From an uncultured Dokdonia sp. (GTDB taxonomy: Bacteria > Bacteroidota > Bacteroidia > Flavobacteriales > Flavobacteriaceae): a stretch of DNA of 64,000 nt. Positions within the stretch are counted from its first letter, which is position 1, and the number at the start of each line of letters is the position of its first letter. Both the position numbers and the translations under genes were made by a program. The stretch covers positions 124,001 to 188,000 of the forward strand of contig NZ_CANMDS010000002.1 in the NCBI RefSeq assembly GCF_947496725.1, read 5' to 3'. The notes beneath the pieces were generated by a model that worked only from the letters and a program-made list of their open reading frames with translations, made no database searches and was not told the DNA's origin. Positions 2,899 to 60,240 of the stretch are shown here, one piece after another.

Positions 2899-3726
2899 AT
2901 GAAAGTGCTACCTTTTAAGATACCCAAGCCTACTAATGCTGCCATACTTTTTCAAATTGATGAAGGCGTGTTATACAACTCCCTTCACAATCACGAAGAG
3001 GTGCAAATAAGTTTTATAAAAGAGGGATCTGGGACACTCTTTGCAGGAGATGCCGTCCATTCTTTTGTTAAGGGAGACATTATTGTTTTGGGTAGTCACC
3101 AGCCGCACGTTTTTAATAGCGATGGTAAGCAGGCGTTAATGCATACGGTGTTTTTTAGTCTCGCCTCCTTTGGAGATACATTTCTGGCACTAGATGAGGG
3201 CAAAGGGATTGTAGATTTTTACGCTTTCGCGAAAGCGGGATTTAAAACCTCCATAACGCCAGATATCGCTGCGCTTTTTAACTACATCGCTACGGCAAAA
3301 GGTATCTATAAACTGGGCTATTTTATAGAAATTATAACCGCGCTCAAAGTCGCAAAACACACCCCCCTATCTGAATTTATATACGAACGCGATATCTCTG
3401 AAAAAGATGGAAAGCGTATGAGCGCCATCTTTGACTACACCTTAAGCAACTATCACCAAGACATTACTCTAGCACAACTTGCCGCTCTCACAGCACTCAC
3501 GCCACACGGGTTTTGTAAATATTTTAAACAGCGCACAAATAAGACGTATTTTACATTTCTTACAGAAGTACGTATCTCAAAAGCTTGTACTTATCTCGCT
3601 ACAGATAGCGATCTCACCATAGGTAGTATAGCAGATTTATGTGGCTATAAAACGCTATCCCATTTTAATAAAAGCTTTAAATCTATAAAAGGAATTACTC
3701 CCACAGTTTTTAGAAAAGCCAAATGA
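2899..3726 (+). CDS. AraC-family transcriptional regulator with cupin sensor domain
   Basis: A 275-residue protein. Residues about 15-95 form a cupin-like ligand-binding fold (LHNHEEVQISFI, GDIIVLGSHQPHVF, with histidines that could bind metal or ligand). Residues about 175-275 carry the double helix-turn-helix of AraC/XylS proteins (DITLAQLAALTALTPHGFCKYFKQ, then the signature SIADLCGYKTLSHFNKSFKSIKGITPTVFRK). It is transcribed away from the DapA-family/ALDH operon and most likely controls it in response to the substrate. One copy of the repeated palindrome lies inside the linker at 3222-3237 and encodes YAFAKAG. Confidence 0.88.
   Translation: MKVLPFKIPKPTNAAILFQIDEGVLYNSLHNHEEVQISFIKEGSGTLFAGDAVHSFVKGDIIVLGSHQPHVFNSDGKQALMHTVFFSLASFGDTFLALDEGKGIVDFYAFAKAGFKTSITPDIAALFNYIATAKGIYKLGYFIEIITALKVAKHTPLSEFIYERDISEKDGKRMSAIFDYTLSNYHQDITLAQLAALTALTPHGFCKYFKQRTNKTYFTFLTEVRISKACTYLATDSDLTIGSIADLCGYKTLSHFNKSFKSIKGITPTVFRKAK
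3222..3237. repeat. Repeated palindrome CGCTTTCGCGAAAGCG, intragenic
   Basis: Perfect 16-bp palindrome inside the AraC-family gene, read as AFAKA. Confidence 0.95.
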
Positions 3727-3826
3727 TATATCTCTAATCTAGGCGCTTGTGTTTTTTATAATTATCTTAAGACGATAAAGTGTTAAATACACATATCTTT
3801 ACGTTAACAACCAAGACCACATACAG

Positions 3827-5787: not shown

Positions 5788-5791
5788 CCAT

Positions 5792-6211
5792 ATGCAACCA
5801 CTAAGAGAGATATTACTTATAGACGACTCTGAGTCAGATAATTTTGTACACTCAAGAGTTATTAAAAAGGCAAAAGTAACGGCAAAAGTGACAATAAAAT
5901 ACTCTGGTGAAGAAGGACTAGAATACCTCAAAACATTAATAGATGAAGACTACCCAAAACCTGACCTCATATTTTTAGACATTAATATGCCGGGTATGGA
6001 TGGTTTTGAGTTTTTAGAACATTATGAAAATCTAGAAATTAACCAGAAAGCAGGTGTTGTTATCGCAATGCTCACGACCTCAACATCACCAGTAGATAAG
6101 CAAAAGGCTGAGAAGTATCCTTTACTGTGTCACTTTGATAACAAGCCGCTTACTAAAGAGAGTCTAATGAAAATTTTACAACAGCAATTCCCTGGAAGAT
6201 TTGATGACTAG
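5792..6211 (+). CDS. Single-domain response regulator (Rcp1/CheY-like)
   Basis: A 139-residue receiver with acid pocket LLIDDSESDNF, phospho-aspartate in LIFLDINMPGMDGFEF near residue 63, switch residue in MLTTSTSP, and lysine in FDNKPLTKES. The -DN- and LDINMPGMDGFEFLEHY signatures are those of receivers that partner with bacteriophytochrome-like and FAYIASHDLQEP-type kinases. No output domain is present. It follows the kinase by four bases, and its 3' end overlaps the convergent YdjM-like gene by four bases. It is probably the direct phosphate acceptor of the kinase. Confidence 0.88.
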   Translation: MQPLREILLIDDSESDNFVHSRVIKKAKVTAKVTIKYSGEEGLEYLKTLIDEDYPKPDLIFLDINMPGMDGFEFLEHYENLEINQKAGVVIAMLTTSTSPVDKQKAEKYPLLCHFDNKPLTKESLMKILQQQFPGRFDD

Positions 6212-7209
6212 TTACCTTTAAGTCGTTGCCATAAATCTATGAGTAGCTTCTTTCCATTTTCTGGTTTAGGTCGGTCTTCGATGGCGGTTATGCTACCATC
6301 ATTGTCTGTAAGAAGGTATCTAAACACAAACTGACTATCATTTTCATCATTTGTAATGAGGCCAAAACGGAGGTCATTATACACCCAGTTCTCTTCCTCT
6401 TTTTCTAAAATGTACCATCCTTCAGAAATGGTAATGAGGCGCTGTACCTCATCTGTCTCAATCCACTTTTGGGCTTGCGCTCTTTTTTTAGGAAACGTTT
6501 TATAAACTATAGGTTGAGAATCAAAAAACGAGTAATCACCTATAAGGTAAGCATCCTGGGTATCTACATTAATATTCCATAAAACTGTGCTGAGCGGCGC
6601 AGGTCTGGTCGAGATTTTAGTATACGTGATTCCTTGCTCTTGCAATGAAGCTTCTACTTTATGGTGCACCGCAAATTTTATGAGAACGGTAAGTAATAAA
6701 TAAGCCGTACTAAGATAAATACCTAGGTTGTTAGTACGCTTTCGCGAAAGCGTATCTCTACCCCTTGTAGCCGCCGCAATAACACATATGAGAAATGGTA
6801 GTGTATATAAAGGATCTACCACAAAAATGCTATTAAAAGCAACTCTCCAGTGAAAGGGCCAAAATATTTGTGTCCCCCAGGTGGTAAATGCATCTAAAAG
6901 TGGGTGTGTAAACAGGCCCCAAAAGAAAAGTTTTGACCAGCCAGTCCAGCCTACGTCTGGTCGCTTTTTTATCTGATGGACAAGCCACCCAAAAAACGGT
7001 GCGGCTATAAGTGCAAAAATGATGCTGTGGCTAAAGCCTCTGTGCATCTCTGTTGCCGTAATAGTATCTGTAAGATATCTCCACACCACATCTAGATCAG
7101 GTATGGTACCAGCTATGGCTCCCCAGAGCATTGCTCTATTACCTACTTTTTTACCTAGAACAGCTTCTCCTACGGCTGCACCTAGTACTATTTGAGTTAG
7201 ACTATCCAC
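6208..7209 (-). CDS. YdjM/YfhO-type membrane-bound metal-dependent hydrolase
   Basis: A 333-residue integral membrane protein of the LexA-regulated YdjM superfamily (PF04307). Motifs are MDSLTQIVLGAAVGE at the N terminus, PDLDVV near 38, HRGFSHSIIFAL near 57, and HPLLDAFTTWGTQIFWPF near 105. The histidines and aspartates are the expected metal ligands. Several hydrophobic segments lie in residues 1-180, followed by a soluble C-terminal part of about 150 residues. The start is GTG. It is the last gene of a minus-strand operon with the MutS-like gene, 16 bp away. A repeat palindrome at 6737-6752 encodes TLSRKRT in a loop between membrane segments. The substrate is unknown. Confidence 0.8.
   Translation of the reverse strand: MDSLTQIVLGAAVGEAVLGKKVGNRAMLWGAIAGTIPDLDVVWRYLTDTITATEMHRGFSHSIIFALIAAPFFGWLVHQIKKRPDVGWTGWSKLFFWGLFTHPLLDAFTTWGTQIFWPFHWRVAFNSIFVVDPLYTLPFLICVIAAATRGRDTLSRKRTNNLGIYLSTAYLLLTVLIKFAVHHKVEASLQEQGITYTKISTRPAPLSTVLWNINVDTQDAYLIGDYSFFDSQPIVYKTFPKKRAQAQKWIETDEVQRLITISEGWYILEKEEENWVYNDLRFGLITNDENDSQFVFRYLLTDNDGSITAIEDRPKPENGKKLLIDLWQRLKGN
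6737..6752. repeat. Repeated palindrome, intragenic (YdjM-like gene)
   Basis: Perfect 16-bp core within a full 20-bp copy (6735-6754), read as TLSRKR. Confidence 0.95.
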
Positions 7210-9356: not shown

Positions 9357-9841
9357 TCCTTTTTGATATATGCGATTTTACGCTCTGCACTTGTGAGCGG
9401 TTCAAACCAAGTTTCCATAAATTCAAAATCGGCTGGTGAGACGTCAAATTGATATGTCGTCCCTTTTTCTAGATTGCGATGCGTCACGCGCTGCTGTCTA
9501 ACTTCTTTATCTATGTCTAAAAAGTGTAACTGGAAAGGGATTTGTTGCGCTTTCGCGAAAGCGTAAAAACGTGCTCTCCTATCTGCTTTTGCAAATCCTA
9601 AATCTAGTATAGCTGGCGTACCTGCCTCGTGTAACTGGATGATAAGTGACTGTATCATCTCATCGCTGCGGTTAATACGTTCTAAAAACCAGTCTACACC
9701 ATCTGTCTCTTTCTTGTCATCTAGAAAGAGCGTCTTGTTCCAATAATCTATAGAGAATATGACACCTTTTACCTCTTTTTTAAGAGCGATGGCATAGGTT
9801 GTTTTACCCGCGCCAGTGTTACCTGTAATGAGATGTATCAC
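9353..9841 (-). CDS. AAA/zeta-type P-loop kinase-like ATPase
   Basis: A 162-residue protein starting at GTG, which overlaps the stop of the DUF4230 gene by one base. It has the Walker A motif ITGNTGAGKTTYAIALK at residues 5-20, an acidic IFSIDYWN motif and a RRARFYAFAKAQ region. This resembles small AAA_33 or zeta-toxin-like kinases that phosphorylate small molecules or nucleotides. No antitoxin partner is adjacent, so a toxin role is not supported. The palindrome copy at 9548-9563 encodes YAFAKAQ. The substrate cannot be read from the sequence. Confidence 0.75.
   Translation of the reverse strand: MIHLITGNTGAGKTTYAIALKKEVKGVIFSIDYWNKTLFLDDKKETDGVDWFLERINRSDEMIQSLIIQLHEAGTPAILDLGFAKADRRARFYAFAKAQQIPFQLHFLDIDKEVRQQRVTHRNLEKGTTYQFDVSPADFEFMETWFEPLTSAERKIAYIKKE
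9548..9563. repeat. Repeated palindrome, intragenic (P-loop gene)
   Basis: Perfect 16-bp core read as AFAKA in the minus-strand gene. Confidence 0.95.
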
Positions 9842-12395: not shown

Positions 12396-12998
12396 TTATG
12401 TATTTGCCTCTTTAAAAGCTTCTTGCATTTCTACAAATGCAGCCACAGGGTTTTGTGCATTCCATATACCTCCCAGAGCGCCTACTCCTTTAAAGCCAAG
12501 TGCCACTGCCTCTGGCGTGGTTACGGCATTAATCCCTCCCATCCCTACAATACACTTCTCGCTAGCTCGCACATCAAACCCGCGACCTTGCATATCACTT
12601 TTTGAAATAGCGGCAAAAACGGGACTTAGAATTGTGTAATCAAAAGTTACAGACTGAGCTTCTAGATCTTCTAACTCGTGGTATGATGATGATACTTTTT
12701 TATTCGCTTTCGCGAAAGCGGAAACATACCCTTCTAACCGAGTTTCTTGAGCTCTCCACTTTGCCTCTTCAAGATGCACACCACGCAAGTCAAACTTCTT
12801 ACAAAGCTCCTCGTGGTAGTTATGAGTCATTATACGGTTGTGATACTGAGCGTCTACTCGATTGAGGTATGTAATATGTTCATCAAGGCTTGCTTCAGGT
12901 TTTCTAAAATGATAATGTGCTAAACCTACTTCAAATAAATGGTGAAGCGTCTCTATCTCATCTGGGGTAGTTTGCTCTGGAGAAATTAATAAAATCAT
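12396..12998 (-). CDS. Thiamine-phosphate synthase family protein (ThiE/TenI-like)
   Basis: About 200 residues from the ATG at 12998-12996, which lies one base after the thioredoxin stop. A longer frame would overlap thioredoxin and is less likely. The TIM-barrel signatures of the ThiE/TenI family are visible: YHFRKP near the start, RIMTHNYHE, DLRGVHL, TILSPVFAAISKSD, and VGMGGINAVTTPEAVALGFKGVGALGGIW. The usual thiazole-phosphate and pyrimidine loops look degenerate, for example there is no QLR(D/E)K motif. A TenI-like or divergent role is therefore possible. The palindrome copy at 12705-12720 encodes SAFAKAN. Confidence 0.75.
   Translation of the reverse strand: MILLISPEQTTPDEIETLHHLFEVGLAHYHFRKPEASLDEHITYLNRVDAQYHNRIMTHNYHEELCKKFDLRGVHLEEAKWRAQETRLEGYVSAFAKANKKVSSSYHELEDLEAQSVTFDYTILSPVFAAISKSDMQGRGFDVRASEKCIVGMGGINAVTTPEAVALGFKGVGALGGIWNAQNPVAAFVEMQEAFKEANT
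12705..12720. repeat. Repeated palindrome, intragenic (ThiE-like gene)
   Basis: Perfect 16-bp core read as AFAKA. Confidence 0.95.
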
Positions 12999-15557: not shown

Positions 15558-15879
15558 AAGCTTTCTAATTACAGATAAAAGATATGGAGGAATTTCTTAA
15601 TACAGAAAGGATTTTTTACGCTTTCGCGAAAGCGTAATCACTATCGCAACATTAGTCTAGTTACTAAATAACAACAATACATTCTCACACAAAAAAAGAC
15701 AAATAACCAAATTACTGAGATTGAGATATTTGCAAAAATTATTGGAAAATTACAAAAACGTATGTTTTATCGATAAAATGTAGTATTTTCAAGATATAAA
15801 TCCTAAAATCAATCAATTACGTATGTTTTGATTACACAAAAATGGCAATAACTACATTCAAAGTCCCAAATCATAAAAT
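15558..15879. other. Divergent intergenic region acs / hybrid kinase
   Basis: About 320 bp with no gene. It holds a repeat palindrome at 15619-15634, an 11-bp direct repeat ACGTATGTTTT at 15758-15768 and 15819-15829 (61 bp apart), and a small palindrome TTTATCGATAAA at 15766-15777 overlapping the first repeat. These could be operators of either gene. No good TAnnTTTG box is seen for the kinase. Confidence 0.4.
15619..15634. repeat. Repeated palindrome, intergenic (acs upstream)
   Basis: Core of a full 20-bp copy at 15617-15636, about 60 bp upstream of acs. Confidence 0.95.
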
Positions 15880-18851: not shown

Positions 18852-20957
18852 ATGACAAATTCTGCACTACCCACACAACAAGATTTACATAAATTACTCA
18901 AAACTCACTTTGGTTATGATAATTTCCGCCCTAACCAGCAAGAGATTATTGAGTCCATTTGTAATGGGCAAGATGCACTAGTCATAATGCCTACGGGTGG
19001 TGGTAAATCTATGTGTTTTCAACTGCCAGCTCTGGCGCTTGACGGGGTTGCCCTCGTGATCTCACCGCTTATTGCTTTAATGAAAGATCAGGTAGATGCT
19101 TTGCGAGCAAATGGTATTAAGGCAGCCTATTATAACAGTACACAACCACCAGAAGAGACGCAAAAGGTACTGTCAGACCTACAGCACAATGCGCTAGATC
19201 TTATTTATGTGGCTCCAGAGAGTTTGCAACTATTAGATCCCGTACTTTCTACAATAAAGATATCACTCATTGCCATAGATGAGGCGCACTGTATCTCATC
19301 TTGGGGACACGACTTTAGACCCGCTTACACACAATTAGGTTATTTAAAAAGACGTTATCCAGAAACACCACTTGTAGCACTCACGGCAACTGCAGATAGG
19401 TCTACGCAAGATGACATTGCACAACAACTTAGTATCCCACAAGCAAAAAAATACATCTCCTCTTTTGACAGACCAAACCTCTATCTGGACGTGCGACCAG
19501 GTCAAAAAAGAAACGAGCAAATACTAGACTTTCTAGAAGATCACCCTTTTGAGAGTGGTATCATTTACTGTCTATCAAGAAAAAGCACAGAAAATCTCGC
19601 GGCCAAACTTAAGAGCAACGGGCACAACGCTGCCGCCTACCACGCAGGTATGAGTGCAGAGCAACGCTCAAAAGTGCAAGAAGATTTTATAAACGATACC
19701 ACACCTATAATTTGTGCGACTATTGCCTTTGGGATGGGTATTGACAAGAGTAATGTGCGCTGGGTGATACACTATAATATGCCTAAAAACCTTGAAGGAT
19801 ATTATCAAGAGATAGGTAGAGCCGGCCGTGATGGATTACCGTCACACACGGTACTTTTTTATAGCTATGCAGACACGATGCAGCTACGCCAGTTTATAGA
19901 CGGAGCAAAAAATGCCGACTACCAGATGGCAAAGCTTGACCGTATGCAGCAATATGCAGAGGCACTAAGCTGTAGGCGTAAAGTCCTCATAAATTACTTT
20001 GGGGAGTTCTTATCGCAAGACTGTGGAAACTGTGACATTTGTAAAAATGCCCCCGCATATTTTGATGGCACCGTACTTACCCAAAAAGTACTTTCTGGTG
20101 TGGCCCGTATGCAGCAAAAAGAAGCTATGGGTACTGTAATAGATGTGCTACGAGGTTCTCAAAACGCACAGGTGTATGACAAAGGGTACCAAAATATCAA
20201 AACTTATGGCGCTGCAAAGGATGTCTCTTGGCGAGATCTTCAGCAGTATGTGATACAAATGATTAATCAAGGATTGTTAGAAATACGCTTTCGCGAAAGC
20301 GGAAGACTTCTCCTCACACCGCTTTCTAAAGAAGTTTTATACGACGGTAAAAAGATACAACTCGCAAAACCTAGTAAGGAAAAAGCCAAACCGATTACTA
20401 AAGAACGTAAGCCTAAAAAACCAAAAGGTTCTCTTTTTGAAAAACTACGAGAGCTAAGAGCCGAACTAGCTAGAGAGGCAAATGTTGCGGCTTATATTGT
20501 ATTCTCAGATGCGTCTCTTAAAGATATGGAAGACCAAGAGCCTGTGACTCAAAAACAGTTTTTAGACATACAAGGTGTAGGGCAAGCCAAAATGGAAAAA
20601 TATGGCGCCGACTTTTTAAAACTCATCAAAGAACACCTCAAAAAACCAAAACCTAAAAGCGGTAGCAAAACGTATCTCGAGACTAAAAACCTCATCCAGC
20701 AAGGTCTCTCACTTGAAGAAATTGCAGAGACTCGCAAACTCACCATAGGCTCTGTTTACAATCACCTCATAAAGCTGCACGAAGAGGGTATGGAGATAGA
20801 CTTTTACCAGTTTATACAGCCTGTAGAGGTCAAGCAAGTACACGACGCTATCTTGAAAGTAGCAGATCCAGATAAGCTCAAATCTTTTTATGAATACTTC
20901 AAGGAGGAGATGCCGTATTGGAAAATAAGACTTGCGCTATTTTTAAAAGGTAGGTAG
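18852..20957 (+). CDS. recQ: ATP-dependent DNA helicase RecQ
   Basis: A 701-residue 3'-5' helicase from ATG 18852. Domain order is: SF2 helicase core with FRPNQQEII, Walker A MPTGGGKSMCFQLPA, DEAHCISSWGHDFRPAY, ALTATAD, and motif VI EIGRAGRDG. Then comes the RecQ-C zinc module CRRKVLINYFGE...CGNCDICK near 390-410, the winged helix, an HRDC domain near 525-600 (KLRELRAELAREANV), and a C-terminal helix-turn-helix (LSLEEIAETRKLTIGSVYNHLIKL). It repairs stalled forks and recombination intermediates. A palindrome copy at 20286-20301 encodes RFRESG in the winged-helix region. Confidence 0.94.
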   Translation: MTNSALPTQQDLHKLLKTHFGYDNFRPNQQEIIESICNGQDALVIMPTGGGKSMCFQLPALALDGVALVISPLIALMKDQVDALRANGIKAAYYNSTQPPEETQKVLSDLQHNALDLIYVAPESLQLLDPVLSTIKISLIAIDEAHCISSWGHDFRPAYTQLGYLKRRYPETPLVALTATADRSTQDDIAQQLSIPQAKKYISSFDRPNLYLDVRPGQKRNEQILDFLEDHPFESGIIYCLSRKSTENLAAKLKSNGHNAAAYHAGMSAEQRSKVQEDFINDTTPIICATIAFGMGIDKSNVRWVIHYNMPKNLEGYYQEIGRAGRDGLPSHTVLFYSYADTMQLRQFIDGAKNADYQMAKLDRMQQYAEALSCRRKVLINYFGEFLSQDCGNCDICKNAPAYFDGTVLTQKVLSGVARMQQKEAMGTVIDVLRGSQNAQVYDKGYQNIKTYGAAKDVSWRDLQQYVIQMINQGLLEIRFRESGRLLLTPLSKEVLYDGKKIQLAKPSKEKAKPITKERKPKKPKGSLFEKLRELRAELAREANVAAYIVFSDASLKDMEDQEPVTQKQFLDIQGVGQAKMEKYGADFLKLIKEHLKKPKPKSGSKTYLETKNLIQQGLSLEEIAETRKLTIGSVYNHLIKLHEEGMEIDFYQFIQPVEVKQVHDAILKVADPDKLKSFYEYFKEEMPYWKIRLALFLKGR
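20286..20301. repeat. Repeated palindrome, intragenic (recQ)
   Basis: Perfect 16-bp core read as RFRES. Confidence 0.95.
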
Positions 20958-20984: not shown

Positions 20985-22427
20985 ATGAAAGAATTTACGC
21001 TTTCGCGAAAAATAGGTTTTATCACAGGCCCGTTACTTTGCATTCTCATACTGGCATTACCTTTTGATATTATCAACCCAGCGATAGATAGAGTGGTTGC
21101 CATTGCCGTATGGATGATTATCTGGTGGATTACAGAAGCTGTTTCTATTTCTGTGACGGCGTTAATCCCGTTAGCACTATTTCCACTACTTGGTATAGGT
21201 ACTATAAAAGAAGTTGCAAGCAACTATGCAAACCCTATTGTGTATCTGTTTTTTGGAGGATTTGTCATCGCGCTAGCACTAGAAAAAGTACAGCTACACA
21301 AGCGCATTGCGTTATCAATTCTTAAAATCACAGGCACAAAGGCAAACGGTATCATCTTAGGTTTTATGATTGCCACTGGCCTTATGAGTATGTGGATTTC
21401 AAACACAGCAAGTACGGTAGTGATGCTCCCTATAGCTGTATCTGTTATACAGCTTCTCATAGATGACGAAGATGGATTTACAAAAAACGACCGCAACTTT
21501 GCACTTAGTATTATGCTAGGTATCGCCTTTGGCGCAAATATAGGTGGGATGGCGACCTTGATAGGCACACCACCTAACTCTGTAATGCTTGCCTTTTTAA
21601 ATGAAAGTTATAATGTAGATATAGGCTTTTTTCAATGGATGAAAATGGGTGTTCCCTTTTCTATCTTATTGATGACTATTACCTACTTTATGATTACCCG
21701 CGTCTTTTATCGCAACGGTTTAGGCACCATAGGTAAGTCTGCAAATATTATACAAACCGAACTTGATAAACTAGGTCCTATCTCAAAGGGTGAGAAAGTA
21801 GTGCTTGCCATATTCCTCATTACAGCAATCTCGTGGATGTTGCGCTCGTATTTAAACAACCTGCTACCAGATATTACCCTAACAGACACGACCATTTCTG
21901 TCATTGCCGCACTACTTATGTTTATTGTACCTATTGATTACAAGAAAGGTTCTTTTCCGCTCAATTGGGAAGATACTTCGCGATTACCTTGGGGGATTCT
22001 CATTCTCTTTGGCGGCGGTCTCGCACTTGCCTCCGGACTAGCACAATCTGGTTTTATAGATATGATAGGTTCCTACATATCACAGCAGGAAGACTGGAGT
22101 ATGTGGGTGGTGACTGCCGTGCTTATTTTCTTAATGCTCTTTATGACCGAGTTAATGAGTAATGTAGCCCTCGTGACCATACTCGTACCTCTTGTGGTAG
22201 GTATTGCCATCGGGATGGATGTGCCTATGCTACAAATGGTCATTCCCGTAACCCTTGCTTCTAGTTGTGCTTTTATGCTCCCTATGGCTACACCGCCTAA
22301 TGCGATTGTATTTGCAAGTGGTCACGTGCGCGTAGATCAGATGGCCCGTGTGGGTGTGGTTTTAAATCTCATCTCTGTAGGGTTGCTGTTTGCACTGGCG
22401 TATTATGTGATACCGGTATTGTTTTAA
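20985..22427 (+). CDS. DASS/SLC13 family anion transporter
   Basis: A 480-residue polytopic inner-membrane protein with about 11 hydrophobic segments. It carries the two SNT-type clamshell motifs of divalent anion:sodium symporters: MWISNTASTVVMLPIA near 135 and TELMSNVALVTILVPL near 390. The GTPPNSVM and ATPPNAIVFASG loops contribute to the Na+/dicarboxylate site. It probably imports C4-dicarboxylates or related anions with Na+. The N-terminal FTLSRKIGF is encoded partly by a degenerate palindrome (20998-21010). A TATTTTTA box lies five bases before the ATG. Confidence 0.9.
   Translation: MKEFTLSRKIGFITGPLLCILILALPFDIINPAIDRVVAIAVWMIIWWITEAVSISVTALIPLALFPLLGIGTIKEVASNYANPIVYLFFGGFVIALALEKVQLHKRIALSILKITGTKANGIILGFMIATGLMSMWISNTASTVVMLPIAVSVIQLLIDDEDGFTKNDRNFALSIMLGIAFGANIGGMATLIGTPPNSVMLAFLNESYNVDIGFFQWMKMGVPFSILLMTITYFMITRVFYRNGLGTIGKSANIIQTELDKLGPISKGEKVVLAIFLITAISWMLRSYLNNLLPDITLTDTTISVIAALLMFIVPIDYKKGSFPLNWEDTSRLPWGILILFGGGLALASGLAQSGFIDMIGSYISQQEDWSMWVVTAVLIFLMLFMTELMSNVALVTILVPLVVGIAIGMDVPMLQMVIPVTLASSCAFMLPMATPPNAIVFASGHVRVDQMARVGVVLNLISVGLLFALAYYVIPVLF
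20998..21010. repeat. Degenerate palindrome copy (DASS transporter start)
   Basis: CGCTTTCGCGAAA is intact; the right outer arm is lost. Read as TLSRK. Confidence 0.8.
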
Positions 22428-22432
22428 AATCA

Positions 22433-22448
22433 CGCTTTCGCGAAAGCG
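22433..22448. repeat. Repeated palindrome between convergent stops
   Basis: Perfect core 5 bp after the DASS transporter stop and 8 bp after the RibA-like stop, so it occupies almost the whole 29-bp gap between two convergent genes. Confidence 0.95.
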
Positions 22449-23669: not shown

Positions 23670-23685
23670 CGCTTTCGCGAAAGCG
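23670..23685. repeat. Repeated palindrome, intergenic after kinase stop
   Basis: Core of a 20-bp copy at 23668-23687, 14 bp past the stop of the minus-strand YfiR-domain kinase. Confidence 0.95.
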
Positions 23686-31389: not shown

Positions 31390-31405
31390 CGCTTTCGCGA
31401 AAGCG
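31390..31405. repeat. Repeated palindrome, intergenic after ketosynthase stop
   Basis: Perfect core 10 bp past the stop of the minus-strand ketosynthase gene. Confidence 0.95.
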
Positions 31406-32606: not shown

Positions 32607-32609
32607 CAA

Positions 32610-32622
32610 TTTCGCGAAAGCG
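32610..32622. repeat. Degenerate palindrome copy (ketosynthase promoter)
   Basis: TTTCGCGAAAGCG with one outer arm lost, directly upstream of the -7 box. Confidence 0.8.
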
Positions 32623-34479: not shown

Positions 34480-35112
34480 CTAGAGGTTTATTACGCTTTC
34501 GCGAAAGCGCTCTGCATACTCTGCAATAACATTTTCATCAAAGTAGGGCTCTTCATCAATACGACCTATTACGGTTGCACCACTCATTTTCTTAATTATA
34601 GACTCTGTGGTAGGATGCTCATCTCCAGAAAATATGATACCACCTATCTCAAGATTACGTGCCTTGAGTAATTCAATAGTCATCAGTGTGTGATTGATAC
34701 TTCCTAGGTAATGACGCGATACTACAATCACTTTATCTGTTGGCCTTATTACATCTGCAATGGTTTCGGTTTCATTTATAGGGACTAGTAAGCCGCCTGC
34801 ACCCTCAATTACAAGTAAATTTGTAGTTTCTGGTCTTTTTATTTTATCTACGGTAACGGCTACATTATCTATAGCAGCAGCCGCGTGCGGACTCATAGGC
34901 GTCTGTAAAGCAAAACTGTTATCGTGATATTGCGATATTTCATTTTTAACTAATCGCTTGACTTTGTGAGTATCACTATTATCAAGGTCTCCAGCCTGTA
35001 CTGGCTTCCAGTAATCTGCCTGTAAGGCCTCTGTAACAATGGCTGCAGCAACTGTCTTTCCTACATCTGTAGAAATCCCCGTAATGAAATATGTAGCTTG
35101 TTTATCTTTCAT
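34480..35112 (-). CDS. bioD: Dethiobiotin synthetase
   Basis: A 210-residue ATP-dependent carboxylase that closes the ureido ring of biotin. It has the P-loop FITGISTDVGKTVAAAIVTEAL at the N terminus, the DAPA/Mg region YWKPVQAGDLDNSDT, TPMSPHAAA, VIEGAGGLLVPINE and the PTDKVIVVSRHYLGSINHTLMTIE segment. The C-terminal residues AERFRESVINL are encoded by a palindrome copy (34494-34509) only five codons from the stop. It lies between bioF and bioA in the same orientation. Confidence 0.94.
   Translation of the reverse strand: MKDKQATYFITGISTDVGKTVAAAIVTEALQADYWKPVQAGDLDNSDTHKVKRLVKNEISQYHDNSFALQTPMSPHAAAAIDNVAVTVDKIKRPETTNLLVIEGAGGLLVPINETETIADVIRPTDKVIVVSRHYLGSINHTLMTIELLKARNLEIGGIIFSGDEHPTTESIIKKMSGATVIGRIDEEPYFDENVIAEYAERFRESVINL
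34494..34509. repeat. Repeated palindrome at the 3' end of bioD
   Basis: Perfect core read as RFRES, ending within 14 bp of the stop codon. Confidence 0.95.
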
Positions 35113-35166: not shown

Positions 35167-36351
35167 CTATAATTGGCTTTTTATTAATTCTAGAAGTTCA
35201 GTAACTTCATCTTTACTGTTATATGCGTGCAAACAAATACGCAGGCGCTCTTGACCTTGAGGCACTGTGGGCGATAAAATAGGCTTGACGTTAAAGTTGT
35301 TTTCTTTTAGCTTTCGCGAAAGCGTCTTTACCGCATCATTACCACGTATCACACCACAATGTATGGCAGAGTCACTATCTATAAAGAGCTCACCTAAAGC
35401 TAATCTTTGTACTTCGGCCTTAAAATGATTTATAAGTTTGCGCAAGTTCACAACCTCTGGCGCATCCTCATTTGTACGTTCTAATAATTGCTCATAAGCA
35501 CTTAAAATAACGGCAAGTGAATGTGGAGGCAGCCCAGTAGTATAAATAAAAGACCGTGCAAAATTTACCAGATAGCTCCTTAAAGCCTCACTACCTAAAA
35601 TCGCCGCTCCGTGTGCGCCCATCCCTTTACCAAAGGTGACAATGCGTGCAAAAACTTTATCTTCTAGATGTAGTTCTTGTACGAGTCCGGCGCCTTGAGG
35701 CCCCAGTACAGCGGTTGCGTGCGCTTCATCTATAATGAGGTGTATGCCATTTTTCATACAGATGTTTGCAATAGGAAGAAGGTCTGGCGTATCACCATCC
35801 ATAGAAAAAACAGACTCAGTCACAAGGTATAGCTCGATGGCACCTTCTTGATCATCTAGGTGATGCATCTCTCGCAATCTAGAGACCAGCTTTTTTATAC
35901 TGGCAATATCGTTATGCTTAAACTTATAGCCTCTAGCTGGGCTCATCTGTATGCCATCTCGTATACTAGCGTGTATATACTCATCGTAGAGTATAAGATC
36001 CCCGCGCTGCGGCACACTCTGAAAGAAGCCCACGTTTGCATCATACCCACTATTAAAAACAAGTGCGGAATCTGCTTTGTGAAAATCTGCTAGCATCTCC
36101 TCCGTGCGAGTGTATAGCTTGTGATTACCAGACAGTAATCTGCTCCCTGTGGCTCCATTTGCACTGAGCTGCTCTTCTTGCAATATAGCCTGAGCGCGTG
36201 CTGTAATTTTCTGGGCGATGCTACTATTACTAGAAAATCCTAAATAATCATTTGACGAGAAGTCAACGAGATTTGCTGGAGGCGTGAGCACTCGTAGTGC
36301 TTGCGTAGCTTTTCGAGCATCTAGTTTTTTCTGTAATTTTTTTGGTAACAT
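35167..36351 (-). CDS. bioF: 8-amino-7-oxononanoate synthase (KAPA synthase)
   Basis: A 394-residue alpha-oxoamine synthase that joins pimeloyl-thioester and alanine. The start is the ATG at 36351-36349 (MLPKKLQKKLDARK); an upstream TTG adds seven residues and overlaps the -7 box. Motifs are VDFSSNDYLGFSSN, GATGSRLLSGNHKLYTRTEEMLADFH, FNSGYDANVGFF, VTESVFSMDGDTPDLLPI, IIDEAHATAVLGPQGAG, and VTFGKGMGAHGAAILG with the PLP lysine. A palindrome-derived TLSRKLKEN lies near residue 340. First gene of bioF-bioD-bioA. Confidence 0.94.
   Translation of the reverse strand: MLPKKLQKKLDARKATQALRVLTPPANLVDFSSNDYLGFSSNSSIAQKITARAQAILQEEQLSANGATGSRLLSGNHKLYTRTEEMLADFHKADSALVFNSGYDANVGFFQSVPQRGDLILYDEYIHASIRDGIQMSPARGYKFKHNDIASIKKLVSRLREMHHLDDQEGAIELYLVTESVFSMDGDTPDLLPIANICMKNGIHLIIDEAHATAVLGPQGAGLVQELHLEDKVFARIVTFGKGMGAHGAAILGSEALRSYLVNFARSFIYTTGLPPHSLAVILSAYEQLLERTNEDAPEVVNLRKLINHFKAEVQRLALGELFIDSDSAIHCGVIRGNDAVKTLSRKLKENNFNVKPILSPTVPQGQERLRICLHAYNSKDEVTELLELIKSQL
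35310..35323. repeat. Palindrome copy (14-bp core intact) in bioF
   Basis: GCTTTCGCGAAAGC is intact; the left outermost base differs. Read as TLSRKL. Confidence 0.9.
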
Positions 36352-36436: not shown

Positions 36437-38209
36437 ATGAGATTACTTCTTATTGCATTGCTCTTAAGCTCCTTTTGTATCGCTCAAACTAATGAGTACA
36501 GCATCTCCTTTGAAAATGCTGTACATCACGAGGCTAGCATTGCTATCACCTTCCCAGAACTTAAACAGAAGACCGTTACCGTACGTATGAGTAGATCATC
36601 ACCGGGACGTTATGCTATACACGAGTTTGCAAAAAATGTATTTGACTTTAAAGCAACAAATAGTAAAGGAGAAATACTACAGGCTACCAGACCAGATCCA
36701 TACTCTTGGGAGATTAAAAATCACGATGGAGAAATAAACGTATTCTACACACTCTTTGCAAATAGGGCAGATGGTACGTACTCACAAATAGATGAGTCAC
36801 ACGCACACCTCAATATGCCTGCTACATTTATGTTTATGGAGGGAGAAGAGCATCGCCCTATCAAGATAGACTTTAATGTAAGGAAAGACTTAAACTGGAA
36901 AGTTGCTAGCCAACTCAAAAAAGTCTCACAAACAACATTTACAGCACCAGATTTACAATACTTTTTTGACAGCCCTACGGAGGTAAGTGATTACCAGTTG
37001 CGAGAGTTTATGGTAGATGGTAAAAACATACGCTTTGCATTGCATAGTGATGACAGTGCAGAAGATTTTGACGCCTACTGGAAAAAGGTAAAAGCCATTG
37101 TTCTTGCACAAAAAGAAGTGTTTGGAGAGTTGCCTGTCTATGATTTTGGCGAGTACACCTTCCTTGCCTGTTATGCTCCTCACGTATCTGGTGATGGGAT
37201 GGAACACCGCAACAGTACGATACTTACCGATAGAGAATCACTAGCAGCTGGTGGTATGGAAGGCAATATAGGAACGGTTTCTCACGAGTTTTTTCACTCG
37301 TGGAATGTCGAGCGCATACGCCCAGCAGATCTCGAGCCCTTTGACTTTACAGCAGCAAATATGAGTGGATCCCTATGGTTTGCCGAAGGTTTTACAAGCT
37401 ACTACACTAACTTAATTCTTGCTCGCGCAGGCGTTATCACCAGTGAAGATTATGTAAAAGGACTCAACCGAACGTTCAACTATGTATGGAACTCACCTGC
37501 CCGCGATTATTTTAACCCTATTGAGATGAGCTACCAAGCGCCTTTTGTAGATGCCGCGACCTCTGTAGATCCTGTAAATAGAAACAACACCTTTATCTCA
37601 TACTACTCTTATGGAAGTGTGCTGGGTCTAGCGCTTGACCTCTCACTCCGCCAGCAAGGGCTTAATCTAGATGACTATTTTAAAGTGGTGTGGAATCAGT
37701 TTGGAAAAAAGGAGGTTTCATACAGTATTCAAGATCTTGAAAATGTGTTAGCTGGGTATGCGGGTGACGCTTTCGCGAAAGCGTTCTTCTCTCAATATAT
37801 TTATGATAGTAAGATGCCAGATTATCAAAACCTATTTACAAATGCCGGTCTGAAAATCATACGAGACAAAAACAAGCCTTATCTAGGACTACGTGTAAAC
37901 GCCTCTGAAAGCGGATTACGTATTGCTAGCCCAACTTCAAAAGACTCGCCTGCATATGATGCAAAGCTTAATAAAGGAGATCTTATAACTGCAATAGATG
38001 GAGCAGCGATAACGACTGTAGATGCCTATAATGCGCTAGTTAAAAAGCTCACTGTAGGTCAAACGATTGCAGTGACTTATAAACGTTTTGGTAACGAGGC
38101 AACCACAAATCTAACAGTAAGCGCAGATCCTACCTACACCATCGCTACCGATGAAAACGCAGGTAAAAAAGCTCGTAAGCTCAAAAAACACTGGCTACAA
38201 GAAAAGTAA
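36437..38209 (+). CDS. M61-family glycyl aminopeptidase-like metalloprotease with PDZ domain
   Basis: About 590 residues from the ATG at 36437, which starts a clean signal peptide (MRLLLIALLLSSFCIAQT). A longer frame would place a non-signal leader ahead of it. It has the N-terminal beta domain typical of M61, then the gluzincin zinc site SHEFFHSWNVERIRP (HExxH) near residue 280 with the downstream glutamate in WFAEGFTSYYTNL. A C-terminal PDZ domain lies at about 485-560. It is probably periplasmic. A palindrome at 37768-37783 encodes DAFAKAF. It is followed by a strong terminator. Confidence 0.9.
   Translation: MRLLLIALLLSSFCIAQTNEYSISFENAVHHEASIAITFPELKQKTVTVRMSRSSPGRYAIHEFAKNVFDFKATNSKGEILQATRPDPYSWEIKNHDGEINVFYTLFANRADGTYSQIDESHAHLNMPATFMFMEGEEHRPIKIDFNVRKDLNWKVASQLKKVSQTTFTAPDLQYFFDSPTEVSDYQLREFMVDGKNIRFALHSDDSAEDFDAYWKKVKAIVLAQKEVFGELPVYDFGEYTFLACYAPHVSGDGMEHRNSTILTDRESLAAGGMEGNIGTVSHEFFHSWNVERIRPADLEPFDFTAANMSGSLWFAEGFTSYYTNLILARAGVITSEDYVKGLNRTFNYVWNSPARDYFNPIEMSYQAPFVDAATSVDPVNRNNTFISYYSYGSVLGLALDLSLRQQGLNLDDYFKVVWNQFGKKEVSYSIQDLENVLAGYAGDAFAKAFFSQYIYDSKMPDYQNLFTNAGLKIIRDKNKPYLGLRVNASESGLRIASPTSKDSPAYDAKLNKGDLITAIDGAAITTVDAYNALVKKLTVGQTIAVTYKRFGNEATTNLTVSADPTYTIATDENAGKKARKLKKHWLQEK
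37768..37783. repeat. Repeated palindrome, intragenic (M61 protease)
   Basis: Perfect core read as AFAKA. Confidence 0.95.
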
Positions 38210-40388: not shown

Positions 40389-40404
40389 CGCTTTCGCGAA
40401 AGCG
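40389..40404. repeat. Repeated palindrome between atpD and atpC
   Basis: Core of a full 20-bp copy (40387-40406), 14 bp past the atpD stop. An RNA hairpin here could tune the atpD:atpC ratio. Confidence 0.95.
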
Positions 40405-42060: not shown

Positions 42061-42076
42061 CGCTTTCGCGAAAGCG
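42061..42076. repeat. Repeated palindrome upstream of atpD
   Basis: Core of a full 20-bp copy (42059-42078) in the glmS/atpD gap. Confidence 0.95.
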
Positions 42077-46795: not shown

Positions 46796-47644
46796 GTGCA
46801 AGCAATCACAGCTCATAATCAGATTTCTAAAATCGTCAGTCAAGCAAAAGCGCAAGGTAAAACCGTAGGTTTTGTACCCACAATGGGTGCATTACATAAT
46901 GGCCACGCCTCACTAATAGACTATGCACTCAAAGACTGTGCCCTTATTGTGGTAAGTATTTTTGTAAACCCCACGCAGTTTAATAACGCCACAGATCTAG
47001 AAAAGTATCCCAGAACCATAGAAAAGGATCTCGCATTCTTATCTCACTATGGATCTAAAGTCGCTGTTTACAATCCTTCACCAGAAGAAACCTATGGCAA
47101 TAAAGTGTCTTCAAAGGGGTATGATTTTGGCCATTTAGAAACCGTAATGGAAGGAGAGCATCGCCCAGGACATTTTGATGGTGTAGGTACTGTTTTGAAT
47201 ATTCTTTTTAGACAAGTTAATCCTCATAAGGCATATTTTGGCGAAAAAGATTTCCAACAACTCACCATTGTGCGCAAGCTCGTTGAAATAGAAAATCTGG
47301 ATTTAGAAATTGTAGGTTGCCCCATACATCGTCAAGAAGATGGACTCGCTATGAGTAGTAGAAACTCGCGACTTACAAAGCATCAACTAGAGATTGCACC
47401 CTTTATTTACGAGTCTTTAACATATGCTAGAAAGAACTTCAACAATCTTTCGGCACGAGAATTAAAAACATATATCGAGTCTATTTACAAAGAAAAGGAC
47501 GGACTGGAACTGGAGTATTTTGAGATCGTAAATGTTAAAAATCTTCGTACGCTTTCGCGAAAGCGTAAAAATCAACAATATCGAGCTTTCCTTGCCGTTT
47601 ATGCTGGCGAGGTGAGACTTATAGATAACATCGCTTTAAATTAA
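46796..47644 (+). CDS. panC: Pantothenate synthetase
   Basis: A 282-residue ligase joining pantoate and beta-alanine with ATP. It starts at GTG. Class I-like nucleotidyl motifs are VGFVPTMGALHNGHASLI and GLAMSSRNSRLT (KMSKS-like). Also present are FVNPTQFN, FDGVGTVLNILF and YFGEKDFQQLTIVRKL. A palindrome copy (47550-47565) encodes TLSRKRKNQ near the C terminus. panD, which provides beta-alanine, follows after 24 bp with its own -7 box. Confidence 0.96.
   Translation: MQAITAHNQISKIVSQAKAQGKTVGFVPTMGALHNGHASLIDYALKDCALIVVSIFVNPTQFNNATDLEKYPRTIEKDLAFLSHYGSKVAVYNPSPEETYGNKVSSKGYDFGHLETVMEGEHRPGHFDGVGTVLNILFRQVNPHKAYFGEKDFQQLTIVRKLVEIENLDLEIVGCPIHRQEDGLAMSSRNSRLTKHQLEIAPFIYESLTYARKNFNNLSARELKTYIESIYKEKDGLELEYFEIVNVKNLRTLSRKRKNQQYRAFLAVYAGEVRLIDNIALN
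47550..47565. repeat. Repeated palindrome, intragenic (panC 3' end)
   Basis: Perfect core read as TLSRKR. Confidence 0.95.
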
Positions 47645-50188: not shown

Positions 50189-50201
50189 CGCTTTCGCGAA
50201 A
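50189..50201. repeat. Degenerate palindrome copy after the esterase-like gene
   Basis: CGCTTTCGCGAAA with the right arm replaced by A-rich sequence, 19 bp after the stop. Confidence 0.8.
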
Positions 50202-50206
50202 AAAAT

Positions 50207-51850: not shown

Positions 51851-51866
51851 CGCTTTCGCGAAAGCG
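51851..51866. repeat. Repeated palindrome after the 7TM-LuxR stop
   Basis: Core of a 20-bp copy (51849-51868), 8 bp after the stop codon. Confidence 0.95.
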
Positions 51867-53347: not shown

Positions 53348-53363
53348 CGCTTTCGCGAAAGCG
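53348..53363. repeat. Repeated palindrome after the radA stop
   Basis: Core of a 20-bp copy (53346-53365), 3 bp after the radA stop. Confidence 0.95.
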
Positions 53364-56814: not shown

Positions 56815-59800
56815 ATGCGGTTATTTTACGTCATCATATGTTTTCTATTTACCAGCACGCTACTGGCTCAACAAACTCGTACAGTAAAAGTTGCGACTAG
56901 AGATACTATTGTAATAGACTCTGTAAGTATTAATCCATCCCTTTTTAGTATAAAATCACTCACAGGCAAAACAGTAGACAGTTCTCTTTACACTATAGAT
57001 TATGCTAAGAGTATTCTTTCGCTTAAAGCGAAAAAAACCACACTCCCAGACAGTCTAGAGATTACATACAAACTGTATCCAGATTTTCTCACTCGGCGCT
57101 ACTCAAAATTTGATAAAAGTCAAATCGTAGAAAGCACTGGCGCCCTAGATAAACTTGTAAGCCTTGGTGTTGATAAAAGAAAAAATAGCGCTCAGCCCTT
57201 CTCTGGTCTTAACGTGAGCGGAAGCATTTTAAGAGGAGTCGCCGTGGGTAATAGTCAAAACAGCACACTCAACTCCGAACTAGATTTACAAATAAGTGGT
57301 AAGCTTAGTGAGAAAGTTACTTTACGGGCTTCTTTACAAGATGCAAACATCCCAAGCCAGCAGGGAGGGTATTCTCAAAATCTGGACGAATTTGATCAAA
57401 TATTTATTGAGCTCTTTTCAGACAATTGGAATATAAGAGCAGGAGATATAAATCTTCAAAACACAGATTCCTACTTTGGGCAGTTTACAAAAAAGATTCA
57501 AGGGCTTTCATTATCAGGCACTGTTAATCACTCAGACACAAAAAGCACAGACCTTTTTGGCTCTGGTGCGCTCGTGCGTGGGGTATTTACACAAAGTACA
57601 TTTACAGGTCAAGAGGGTAATCAAGGACCTTATAAACTCACAGGACCTAATGGCGAACTTTTTGTGCTTGTGGTCTCTGGTAGCGAGACAGTATACGTAA
57701 ATGGCATCCCGCTGCAACGAGGAGAAAATGAAGATTATGTAATAGATTACAATGCTGGGGAAATACGTTTTAACGCTACATATCCCATCACAAGTGAGAT
57801 GCGTATCAATGTAGAGTATCAATTTTCTGAGCGAAGATATACTCGCGTGCTGGCTTATGCGGGGGGAAGCTTTCGCGAAAGCGATAACCTGAAAATTGCT
57901 GCTCACGTATATTCTGAAAGTGACCTAAAGAACCAACCTTTACAACAAAACCTAACCACCGAACAAGTTGCCATTCTAGAAGCCGCAGGAGATAATACTG
58001 CCGAAATGGTAGCACCCAGCGCCGTACCCGATACCTTTGACACTAATAAAATACTATACCGGCAGGTTATAATAAATGGTGTAGAGGTATTTGAGTTTAG
58101 CACAGACCCAAATGAGTCCCTTTTTCAAGTGCGATTTACTAATGTAGGTGTTAACCAGGGTGACTATGTTTTGAGTACTACAAACACATTACAACGCACT
58201 TTTGAGTACGTAGCTCCAGTAAATGGTGTGCCACAAGGGTCTTTTGCGCCAGAGGTACAATTGTTTTCACCCACATTGCTGCAACTAGGTGTTGTAAATG
58301 GTAGTTATACACCATCTGAGAAGACCACTATAAATTTTGAAGCTGCAGGGAGTAAAAATGATACTAACACATTTTCTACTCAAGATGATGGTGATAATAA
58401 CGGCTATGCTTTACACCTTGATGTAAATCAACACCTTATCAAGAAAGATAGCACAAAGCTTCTCAAAGCATTTGTAAATTGGGATTATATTCAAGAAGAC
58501 TTTGTAAATGTAGAGGGGCTTTATAATGTGGAGTTCAATCGTGATTGGAATTTGGAAAATTCGCTGGCAAACGTAAATGGGCTCTTGCTAGGTACACAAA
58601 ATTATAGTACGCTAGGCCTTGACTACACAGATGTGCAAAATGGCGCACTTACGTATACTTTTCAAAATCTACATTTTGATGGATACTATAACGGTTTGCG
58701 ACATCGTCTTTTAGGTAGATGGCAACTAGGAAGTCTAAAAACTATCGCAAACGCAAGTCTCCTGTCTACAGATGATTTACTGCTCAGAACGAACTTTACA
58801 CGAGTAAATGCACGAACTATTTATGATTTTAAAAAAGCGTGGGTAGGCGGCTCCCTACATCTAGAAGATAACTTACGTGTTGCAAAGAGTAATGACTCTA
58901 TCACACCAGATAGCCAGCGATTTAATGAGTATGCCCTCTACACAGGTGTAGGAGACAGCACAAATATTTATGTAGAAGCAGGTTTTAAATACCGTACTAA
59001 TGACAGTTTACGACTTAATAAAATAGAGCGGGTTAATACTTCACATACGTATTACCTAAAGTCACAGCTTCTTAAAAATGAAAAAACAAACTTGTCCATC
59101 TTTGTAAACTACAGAAACCTGGTATACACAGACCAGCGAGAGAGTGAAAACTCACTTAACTCACGATTGCTTTATGACCAGCGGTTTGCAAATGATATCG
59201 TTAGGTTAAATACTGTTTATGAAACAAATAGTGGCACGCAACCTCAACAAGAATTTACTTATATACAGGTAGATGAGGGACAAGGCACACACACTTGGAA
59301 TGATTATAATGGCGATGGTGTGCAAGAGCTAGATGAATTTGAGATTGCCCAGTTTCAAGATGAGGCAGATTATGTACGAGTTTTGTTACCCAATCAAGTG
59401 TTTGTACGAACGCATCAAAACAGATTAAGCCAGCAACTCACACTGCAGCCGGGCCAGTGGTCTGGACAGAAGGGTATTAAAAAATTCTTGTCACATTTTT
59501 ATAACCAGACGAGTTATATACTTGACAAAAAGGTGTTGCGCCTTTCTAACGATTTTAGTCTGAACCCATTTAACGAAGATGACAACGAGATAGGTGCCAC
59601 CATAAACTTGAGGAACACACTATTTTTTAACAGAGGTAAACAGCGGTATACTACTTCATATAGTTTTTTATCTAACACCTCAAAAACATTACTTTCTACT
59701 GGGTTGCAAGAAGGGAAATTACTCACACATCAACTTAATTTTTTACATAAGATTAAGGAGAGCTGGCTTTTTAATTTTAAAAGTAGCGTGGGAAGTACAC

Positions 59801-60240
59801 AGAGTATCGCCGAAAATTTTGTCTCTCGTAACTTTGATATTGATAATAGCGGCTTTAATCCTAAGGTGTCATACCTTTTTGGAAAGCAATCTAGGGTATC
59901 ATTGTTTTATGAATTTCAAAACAAAGAAAACCAGAGCGAGGGACAAGAAAGATTGGATCAACAAAATCTTGGCATCTCATTTGCACTAGCAGATTTTGAA
60001 AAGATATCTGTTTCGGGTGAGATGAAGTTTATAAATAATGATTTTCGCGGAAGCGCATTCAGCCCAGTCGCTTATCAAATCTTAGAAGGACTACAGCCAG
60101 GATCAAATTTTACGTGGAATGTAATCGCACAAAAAAGAATTACGAAGTTTTTAGATCTTAATGTTTCTTACTTTGGAAGAAAGAGCGAAGAAAATAGAAC
60201 AATTCATACTGGTAACATACAGATTAAAGCGTTCTTCTAA
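56815..60240 (+). CDS. Giant outer-membrane beta-barrel protein, resembling part of SprA
   Basis: A 1141-residue protein with signal peptide ending LLAQQ. The N-terminal half contains blocks such as LNVSGSILRGVAVGNSQNS, LSEKVTLRASLQDANIPSQ and EFDQIFIELFSDNWNIRAGD. They recall the gliding/T9SS protein SprA, but it is about half that length. A DYNGDGVQELDEFE calcium-like loop lies near 830. The C-terminal third alternates aromatic beta strands and ends ...IQIKAFF, as outer-membrane barrels do. Palindrome copies encode SFRESDN (57869-57882) and a variant DFRGSAF (60042-60057). The resemblance is from memory of motif style, not a search. Confidence 0.65.
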   Translation: MRLFYVIICFLFTSTLLAQQTRTVKVATRDTIVIDSVSINPSLFSIKSLTGKTVDSSLYTIDYAKSILSLKAKKTTLPDSLEITYKLYPDFLTRRYSKFDKSQIVESTGALDKLVSLGVDKRKNSAQPFSGLNVSGSILRGVAVGNSQNSTLNSELDLQISGKLSEKVTLRASLQDANIPSQQGGYSQNLDEFDQIFIELFSDNWNIRAGDINLQNTDSYFGQFTKKIQGLSLSGTVNHSDTKSTDLFGSGALVRGVFTQSTFTGQEGNQGPYKLTGPNGELFVLVVSGSETVYVNGIPLQRGENEDYVIDYNAGEIRFNATYPITSEMRINVEYQFSERRYTRVLAYAGGSFRESDNLKIAAHVYSESDLKNQPLQQNLTTEQVAILEAAGDNTAEMVAPSAVPDTFDTNKILYRQVIINGVEVFEFSTDPNESLFQVRFTNVGVNQGDYVLSTTNTLQRTFEYVAPVNGVPQGSFAPEVQLFSPTLLQLGVVNGSYTPSEKTTINFEAAGSKNDTNTFSTQDDGDNNGYALHLDVNQHLIKKDSTKLLKAFVNWDYIQEDFVNVEGLYNVEFNRDWNLENSLANVNGLLLGTQNYSTLGLDYTDVQNGALTYTFQNLHFDGYYNGLRHRLLGRWQLGSLKTIANASLLSTDDLLLRTNFTRVNARTIYDFKKAWVGGSLHLEDNLRVAKSNDSITPDSQRFNEYALYTGVGDSTNIYVEAGFKYRTNDSLRLNKIERVNTSHTYYLKSQLLKNEKTNLSIFVNYRNLVYTDQRESENSLNSRLLYDQRFANDIVRLNTVYETNSGTQPQQEFTYIQVDEGQGTHTWNDYNGDGVQELDEFEIAQFQDEADYVRVLLPNQVFVRTHQNRLSQQLTLQPGQWSGQKGIKKFLSHFYNQTSYILDKKVLRLSNDFSLNPFNEDDNEIGATINLRNTLFFNRGKQRYTTSYSFLSNTSKTLLSTGLQEGKLLTHQLNFLHKIKESWLFNFKSSVGSTQSIAENFVSRNFDIDNSGFNPKVSYLFGKQSRVSLFYEFQNKENQSEGQERLDQQNLGISFALADFEKISVSGEMKFINNDFRGSAFSPVAYQILEGLQPGSNFTWNVIAQKRITKFLDLNVSYFGRKSEENRTIHTGNIQIKAFF
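57869..57882. repeat. Palindrome copy (14-bp core intact) in the giant outer-membrane gene
   Basis: GCTTTCGCGAAAGC intact, outer arm bases differ; read as SFRES. Confidence 0.9.
60042..60057. repeat. Variant palindrome copy TTTTCGCGGAAGCGCA
   Basis: Same 16-base variant as at 29348-29363, read as DFRGSAF. Confidence 0.7.

Follow-up and report, generated by a model that had tools for sequence, protein, structure and literature searches.

What does a perfect palindrome do that returns every few kilobases along a bacterial chromosome? The question is raised by a stretch of 64,000 nucleotides from a Dokdonia genome (Flavobacteriaceae), the window of this analysis (G000:C2:124001-188000; G000 is called the own genome below), throughout which the 16-mer palindrome CGCTTTCGCGAAAGCG is repeated. 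An initial annotation had taken the repeat for a chromosome-wide element with an unknown reader, comparable to HIP1 of cyanobacteria or to uptake or segregation signals, and had considered methylation at its TCGCGA centre. The first part of this interpretation holds, given 711 copies in the own genome, presence in all genomes counted from three genera, mostly even spacing and conservation of the sites; the HIP1 or methylation version and the segregation version are not supported, and the comparison with uptake signals stays the best lead. A mirror-symmetric word kept at hundreds to about 1000 copies, mostly at regular distances and protected from change, points to a protein that reads it, and the role of this protein is perhaps to recognise the cell's own DNA.

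Each of the 16 copies described as intact is an exact CGCTTTCGCGAAAGCG at the coordinate given for it (Table 1). At up to 3 mismatches the window holds 22 matches, where dinucleotide shuffles of the same DNA lead one to expect 0.11; one of these, at 49813, is without the core and could be a chance match. The 10-mer core TTTCGCGAAA occurs 21 times, in the 16 exact copies, in two with one mismatch and in three with one degenerate arm. The two copies reported as intact over 14 bp, at 35310 and 57869, do have the 14-bp core GCTTTCGCGAAAGC whole, and read as 16-mers with one mismatch they start at 35309 and 57868. Among five copies called degenerate, those at 20998, 32607 and 50189 retain TTTCGCGAAA; those at 29348 and 60042 are 4 mismatches away and not clearly copies, because permuted control palindromes also reach that level. 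The two intervals, 29348-29363 and 60042-60057, have the word TTTTCGCGGAAGCGCA in common, lie 4 mismatches from the palindrome in their best register and are possibly decayed or variant sites.

The repeat is by no means restricted to this region. The own genome is assigned to Dokdonia because its glmS shares 87% identity with that of Dokdonia pacifica, a species found among the compared genomes of its genus (G305 and G684 match it alike), and Nonlabens is recognised through G321, which matches a named genome of that genus. The 711 exact 16-mers are spread over 3.29 Mb of own genome, in which the reversed word used as control is found 0 times. When 296 genomes of the order were sampled, ten others had 1-2 exact copies and 285 had none. 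Counted by TTTCGCGAAA, all 18 of 18 Dokdonia genomes carry 481-1195 copies, three Nonlabens genomes carry 595 (G321), 700 (G533) and 648 (G681), and a single genome of a third genus (G484) carries 559. All 22 of 22 counted genomes of the three genera thus fall within 481-1195; 397 genomes of the family were searched for the core, and in the 391 remaining ones the count is 34 or lower. In a glmS tree of 47 rows (17 from compared genomes, 30 picked from 80 named loci) all 21 carrier rows lie to one side of a single branch (support 93/95), which is consistent with a single origin of the element. G484, with 46% G+C in its sampled stretches, has a weaker consensus and less even spacing, and may represent an early or a decaying state of the element.

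Alignment of 153 core copies from 464 kb of the own genome reveals a near-invariant GCTTTCGCGAAAGC followed by a C/G pair and then by TA on both sides, giving the extended form TACGCTTTCGCGAAAGCGTA. Beyond it, on both sides, G and T abound and C is scarce on the strand that reads 5' to 3' towards the site. In 720 arms from the own genome, the genomes G302 and G303 (both complete) and G533, the frequency of C between positions 10 and 26, counted from the centre, is 0.03-0.10 compared with 0.19, and the effect fades by about position 32. The bias is present in all four gene contexts, in G302 and in G533, and is weak in G484. The two arms of a site match each other no better than shuffled ones (0.305 against 0.321), so that the flanking signal is one of composition and not a longer hairpin. 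Outside full cores, the half-words in 400 kb (both strands) number 3, 2, 2 and 0, with Markov expectations of 0.95, 0.15, 0.46 and 1.31; so few of them indicate that it is mainly the whole palindrome that is kept, as would be expected of a dimeric reader of double-stranded DNA. GCGAAAGC is known as a very stable single-strand mini-hairpin, and an explanation built on it is weakened by the same scarcity of half-words. Exact copies of the 14-mer greatly outnumber those with one mismatch: 137 to 4 in the own genome, 92 to 10 in G302, 85 to 9 in G303, 47 to 5 in G533 and 32 to 8 in G484. Copies with two mismatches number 17, 33, 21, 3 and 15 in the same five genomes, against 0.3-0.7 for control palindromes, so that some sites, a minority, do have a degenerate arm. 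The idea that near-cognate sites are actively avoided was considered and dropped: in the own genome TTCGCGAA occurs only within the element, but the 2 seen against 1.8-3.6 expected give no signal.

As the annotation had stated, copies sit both in genes and in gaps, and gaps of every kind are included. With a simple caller of open reading frames (ORFs), 152 of the 153 cores can be placed. ORFs contain 83 of them, although they make up 87-89% of bases; the remaining 69 are intergenic, against 12.4% of bases. By type of gap, 40 are co-directional (35 kb), 15 divergent (10.6 kb) and 14 convergent (6.8 kb), and the number of copies per base is highest in the convergent ones. Copies within genes favour one reading frame (45, 20 and 18; p 0.0003). 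These positions are protected. The copy at 47550 has the same letters in the 13 of 13 other Dokdonia stretches that cover the locus, its counterpart in G484 has 3 mismatches, and each of the 5 third-codon positions within the site is the same in all 14 genomes, compared with 4 of 56 outside. Between the own contig C1 and the G303 stretch, 175 kb align at 79% identity. From 127 own copies (up to 2 mismatches), 57 can be mapped to G303 and 70 cannot; 47 of those mapped are conserved, for 4 more the same unaligned interval contains a copy (51 kept), and 6 are left without one. Aligned exact copies are letter-identical in 33 of 39 cases, random 16-mers in 296 of 4731 (6%). Among Dokdonia species the site is thus conserved; the same site occurs in Nonlabens, and a weaker form of it in the third genus.

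The sites are also far more evenly spaced than chance allows in the own genome and in most sampled genomes, less so in two of five. The own genome has one site per ~3-4.6 kb. In 400 kb of C1, the gaps between 101 exact copies have a coefficient of variation (CV) of 0.51, whereas a null model preserving the gene/intergenic preference gives a mean of 1.06 and a lowest value of 0.79 in 5000 trials. The 132 core copies of the same 400 kb also yield a CV of 0.51, with variance/mean ratios of 0.17-0.39 in bins of 5-80 kb (0.17 at 20 kb); the 21 cores of the window alone yield 0.64. Pairs closer than 1.25 kb occur at 0.13-0.40 of the random frequency when C1, the window and the G302 stretches are pooled. 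Control palindromes of 6-8 letters with 60-250 copies in C1 (29 words, among them the element's own TTCGCGAA and TCGCGA) have a median CV of 0.98 and a median variance/mean of 0.99. Twenty stretches of 20 kb spread round G302 contain 4-8 cores each (variance/mean 0.25), and the exact 16-mers there are moderately even (0.64). In Nonlabens G533 the core value is 0.18 over ten stretches. Sites are poorly spaced in this sense in G484 (0.83) and in 400 kb of G303 (0.69, CV 0.86), where two site-free gaps of 21 kb account for much of the unevenness and the CV is 0.60 when they are left out. No trend from origin to terminus is seen along the G302 chromosome over its 20 stretches, the origin being taken as the parS-like pair at 1.23 Mb. 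This, together with the separateness of that pair from the palindrome, speaks against the segregation signal of the initial annotation.

We give a probability of roughly 0.42 to the reading that the palindrome is a self-DNA signal of the uptake-sequence type, read by a dimeric protein. One such DNA-binding protein would read the whole palindrome, and the flanking arms may help it to bend, wrap or melt the DNA. The site would then mark DNA as self, much as the DNA uptake sequences of Haemophilus and Neisseria do. Any fragment of kin DNA several kilobases long would carry a site and be preferentially taken up or recombined; copies would accumulate in permissive places of the core genome, and they would be spaced out since a second site per fragment would add little. 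The likeness to the uptake signal sequences (USS) of Pasteurellaceae and the DNA uptake sequences (DUS) of Neisseriaceae lies in a clade-specific word present in hundreds to thousands of copies, an excess of perfect over one-mismatch copies, permissive placement, conserved positions and flanking tracts. The excerpts of published work cited here describe the excess of perfect copies as a peculiarity common to USS and DUS, unlike regulatory sites (PMC1626085), with 1471 perfect and 764 one-mismatch copies in H. influenzae (PMC1939737). They further report flanking segments for the Pasteurellaceae USS (PMC1626085), DUS that are conserved above their surroundings, enriched in the core genome and absent from recently acquired genes (PMC2397512), and preferential uptake of own DNA by a relative, Riemerella columbina (PMC7965970). 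An element that works like an uptake sequence leads because the perfect-copy excess and the conserved, permissive placement are clearly common to both, and the depletion in new DNA partly so. Three signs of depletion count for it. The first is the G303 region with the two 21-kb gaps. The second is the lower density of the larger genomes in a set of 12 from Dokdonia with a completeness of 99% or more (Spearman -0.60, p 0.04, sizes rounded). The third is that the Nonlabens phages P12024S and P12024L (isolates of 35.7 kb each, no integrase annotated) contain no copy within 3 mismatches.

Several points weigh against this reading. The uptake sequences known to us are all asymmetric and 9-12 bp long, whereas this element, found in Bacteroidota, is a palindrome of 14-20 bp with two-sided G/T arms. 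It is not classed among the uptake sequences because the palindrome is unlike the known ones and the proposed uptake role is drawn by analogy. Evenness is judged beside E. coli Chi and not by a Haemophilus or Neisseria yardstick of spacing. Protein families were compared between 14 carriers and 16 genomes without the element. All 30 of 30 have the ComEC-type competence domain PF03772, which counts for an uptake role but does not discriminate, since carriers and non-carriers have it alike; no family tested in these genomes explains the element. A literature search on competence gave nothing on Dokdonia or Nonlabens among the matches listed. Own C1 DNA outside the alignment with the G303 stretch shows no depletion: of 127 copies, 70 are located there or at its borders, and 57 are aligned. 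Lastly, some phage contigs hold 2-6 copies, one of them with an integrase.

The evidence on depletion in acquired DNA is mixed. The exact 16-mer is found in 41 stretches of viral contigs, and some of these matches, in GC-rich contigs, look like chance. Among ten proteins scanned from three viral contigs, 8 match phage families, including portal, major head, tape-measure and integrase; the 37-kb contig with 6 copies has a weak tape-measure match as its only named one. Nearly the same portal protein is encoded in five contigs, all already among the palindrome-carrying ones. In the viral contigs L139, L107 and L132, which have head, tail or integrase matches, the density of the palindrome reaches up to near-chromosomal values. 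In the first 21-kb gap of G303, 7 of the 8 listed long ORFs were scanned. Two of them matched nothing, and the rest comprise an RND efflux set, a protein with a beta-lactamase-type domain and an aminotransferase joined to a phosphotransferase domain; the second gap has ORFs of 2512, 1138 and 2404 aa. This region as a whole (G303:C1, ~2.60-2.65 Mb, L260-L262) is nearly palindrome-free, with the RND efflux set, the beta-lactamase-domain protein and two ORFs longer than 2400 aa.

Could the even spacing itself be what is selected? As a chromosome-organising site, a possible but less probable explanation, the palindrome would be bound by a dedicated dimeric nucleoid protein, and if about 1000 evenly pitched copies set the size of loops or domains, selection would act on spacing. 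The even pitch and the symmetry fit such an architectural site nearly as well as an uptake signal, though we hold this view only tentatively. The low gap CV and variance/mean of the own genome (0.51 and 0.17 in 20-kb bins), the depletion of close pairs there and in G302, the core values of 0.25 in G302 and 0.18 in G533 and the keeping of the whole palindrome all favour it. On the other hand, G303 tolerates site-free stretches of 21 kb, density drops in large genomes, and evenness is poor in G484 and G303 and moderate for the exact 16-mers of G302. The sites of matS, Noc and SlmA have a trend from origin to terminus, which the palindrome does not have in G302, and sites of nucleoid proteins are usually degenerate, whereas copies of this element mostly are not. 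Those of parS, Noc and MatP are likewise palindromic and spread on the chromosome, but they number tens of copies with a bias to origin or terminus; the element has about 1000 copies, no such bias in G302, and parS-like sites separate from it. In its boldest and equally tentative form, the explanation describes a palindromic ruler, a dimeric protein on about 1000 near-perfect sites of ~60 bp (arms included) whose pitch of ~3 kb is actively maintained. We know of no such sequence-coded chromosome organisation or self-marking in bacteria.

A signal of the Chi type for recombination or end processing, working from both directions through its palindromy, is improbable. Its density would suit, one site per 3-4.6 kb being close to the value for Chi in E. 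coli (GCTGGTGG; 34 copies in 200 kb, one per 5.9 kb), and the G/T-rich strand would form the 3' tail on either side. However, Chi is a short, asymmetric sequence whose copies fall at random distances (CV 0.98 in those 200 kb), a single-strand signal needs no palindrome and half-words are rare outside the element, and RecC (PF04257) is matched in 0 of the 30 genomes (AddAB was not searched for).

That a methyltransferase acting on the TCGCGA centre makes or keeps the sequence, as with HIP1, is very unlikely. Like HIP1 and the alternate HIPs, the element is a highly iterated, clade-wide palindrome in genes and gaps; according to the excerpt of PMC4390886, a correlation exists between HIPs and their cognate methyltransferases, and the own genome does hold one PF02086 match. 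The element is longer and sparser, at ~216 exact copies per Mb, compared with 1000-2000 HIPs per Mb in the same excerpt. The methyltransferase families PF01555, PF00145 and PF02086 are patchy, none is common to the 14 carriers, and G303 and G533 match none of the three (type I, PF07669/PF02384 and other families were not searched). Outside the element TCGCGA is not clearly enriched (53 seen, 44.6 expected by the Markov model), and constraint extends over 14-20 bp. Transcription terminators, regulatory operators or a mobile repeat are just as hard to credit, for although palindromes can form hairpins, several window copies lie 4-15 bp past stop codons and convergent gaps are densest (14 in 6.8 kb), ORFs contain 83 of the 152 placed copies and divergent gaps 15, the flanks are alike in composition only with arm pairing at chance level, an Rfam scan of the window matched no RNA family, and positions are conserved rather than jumping.

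A ParB paralogue was tried as the reader and rejected. A single match to PF02195 (ParB) is present in 13 of 14 carriers and in 12 of 16 others, and G305 has two, so no extra copy is typical of carriers; and the parS-like sites, of which two or three are kept in 14 of 14 carriers, have not been replaced by the palindrome. In all 14 tested carriers there is a parS-like pair ~1.9 kb apart (G000:C2:420614 and 422523 in the own genome), its usual word being GTTCCACGTGAAAC in Dokdonia and in G484, and GTTTCACGTGAAAC in Nonlabens. The ParB of carriers (G000:C1:662060-662338 and equivalents) scores 108.9-115.4 bits against PF02195, slightly below the other 16 genomes, whose best scores are 113.7-120.5.

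The 16-mer CGCTTTCGCGAAAGCG was found in no paper by our literature search. Judged by titles and the beginnings of abstracts, the ten papers containing TTTCGCGAAA hold nothing on this clade, and those on iterated palindromes, uptake signals, spacing, nucleoid or competence do not describe the element; by their titles, the five papers naming both Dokdonia and palindromes are not on point. The copies of the window are collected in Table 1. Apart from them, a window ORF at 7226-8998 (590 aa) is MutS-like; its matches to MutS families are confined to the ATPase part and score under the family cut-offs.

Table 1. Copies of the palindrome in the 64,000-nucleotide window (window positions)
Feature	Position	Strand	Context
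Exact 16-bp palindrome	3222..3237	.	within ORF
Exact 16-bp palindrome	6737..6752	.	within ORF
Exact 16-bp palindrome	9548..9563	.	within ORF
Exact 16-bp palindrome	12705..12720	.	within ORF
Exact 16-bp palindrome	15619..15634	.	gap of divergent genes
Exact 16-bp palindrome	20286..20301	.	within recQ ORF
TTTCGCGAAA core, one arm degenerate, 3 mismatches	20998..21013	.	
Exact 16-bp palindrome	22433..22448	.	gap of convergent genes
Exact 16-bp palindrome	23670..23685	.	intergenic
Exact 16-bp palindrome	31390..31405	.	intergenic
TTTCGCGAAA core, one arm degenerate, 2 mismatches	32607..32622	.	
Exact 16-bp palindrome	34494..34509	.	ORF 3' end
16-mer with 1 mismatch, 14-bp core whole	35309..35324	.	
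Exact 16-bp palindrome	37768..37783	.	within ORF
Exact 16-bp palindrome	40389..40404	.	intergenic
Exact 16-bp palindrome	42061..42076	.	downstream of glmS
Exact 16-bp palindrome	47550..47565	.	within ORF; same letters in 13/13 other covering Dokdonia stretches
TTTCGCGAAA core, one arm degenerate, 3 mismatches	50189..50204	.	
Exact 16-bp palindrome	51851..51866	.	intergenic
Exact 16-bp palindrome	53348..53363	.	gap of convergent genes
16-mer with 1 mismatch, 14-bp core whole	57868..57883	.	within ORF

If the palindrome is a true uptake signal, it would be, to our knowledge, the first established in Bacteroidota and the first that is palindromic, and recognition of self DNA would have arisen anew, by way of a different reader. 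Should it be a true architectural site, these bacteria would possess a regularly spaced, sequence-specific chromosome scaffold. On either reading, the near-identical sites, present in hundreds, make the reader well suited to a pull-down, and the contrast between carriers and non-carriers among related genera should make its gene findable.

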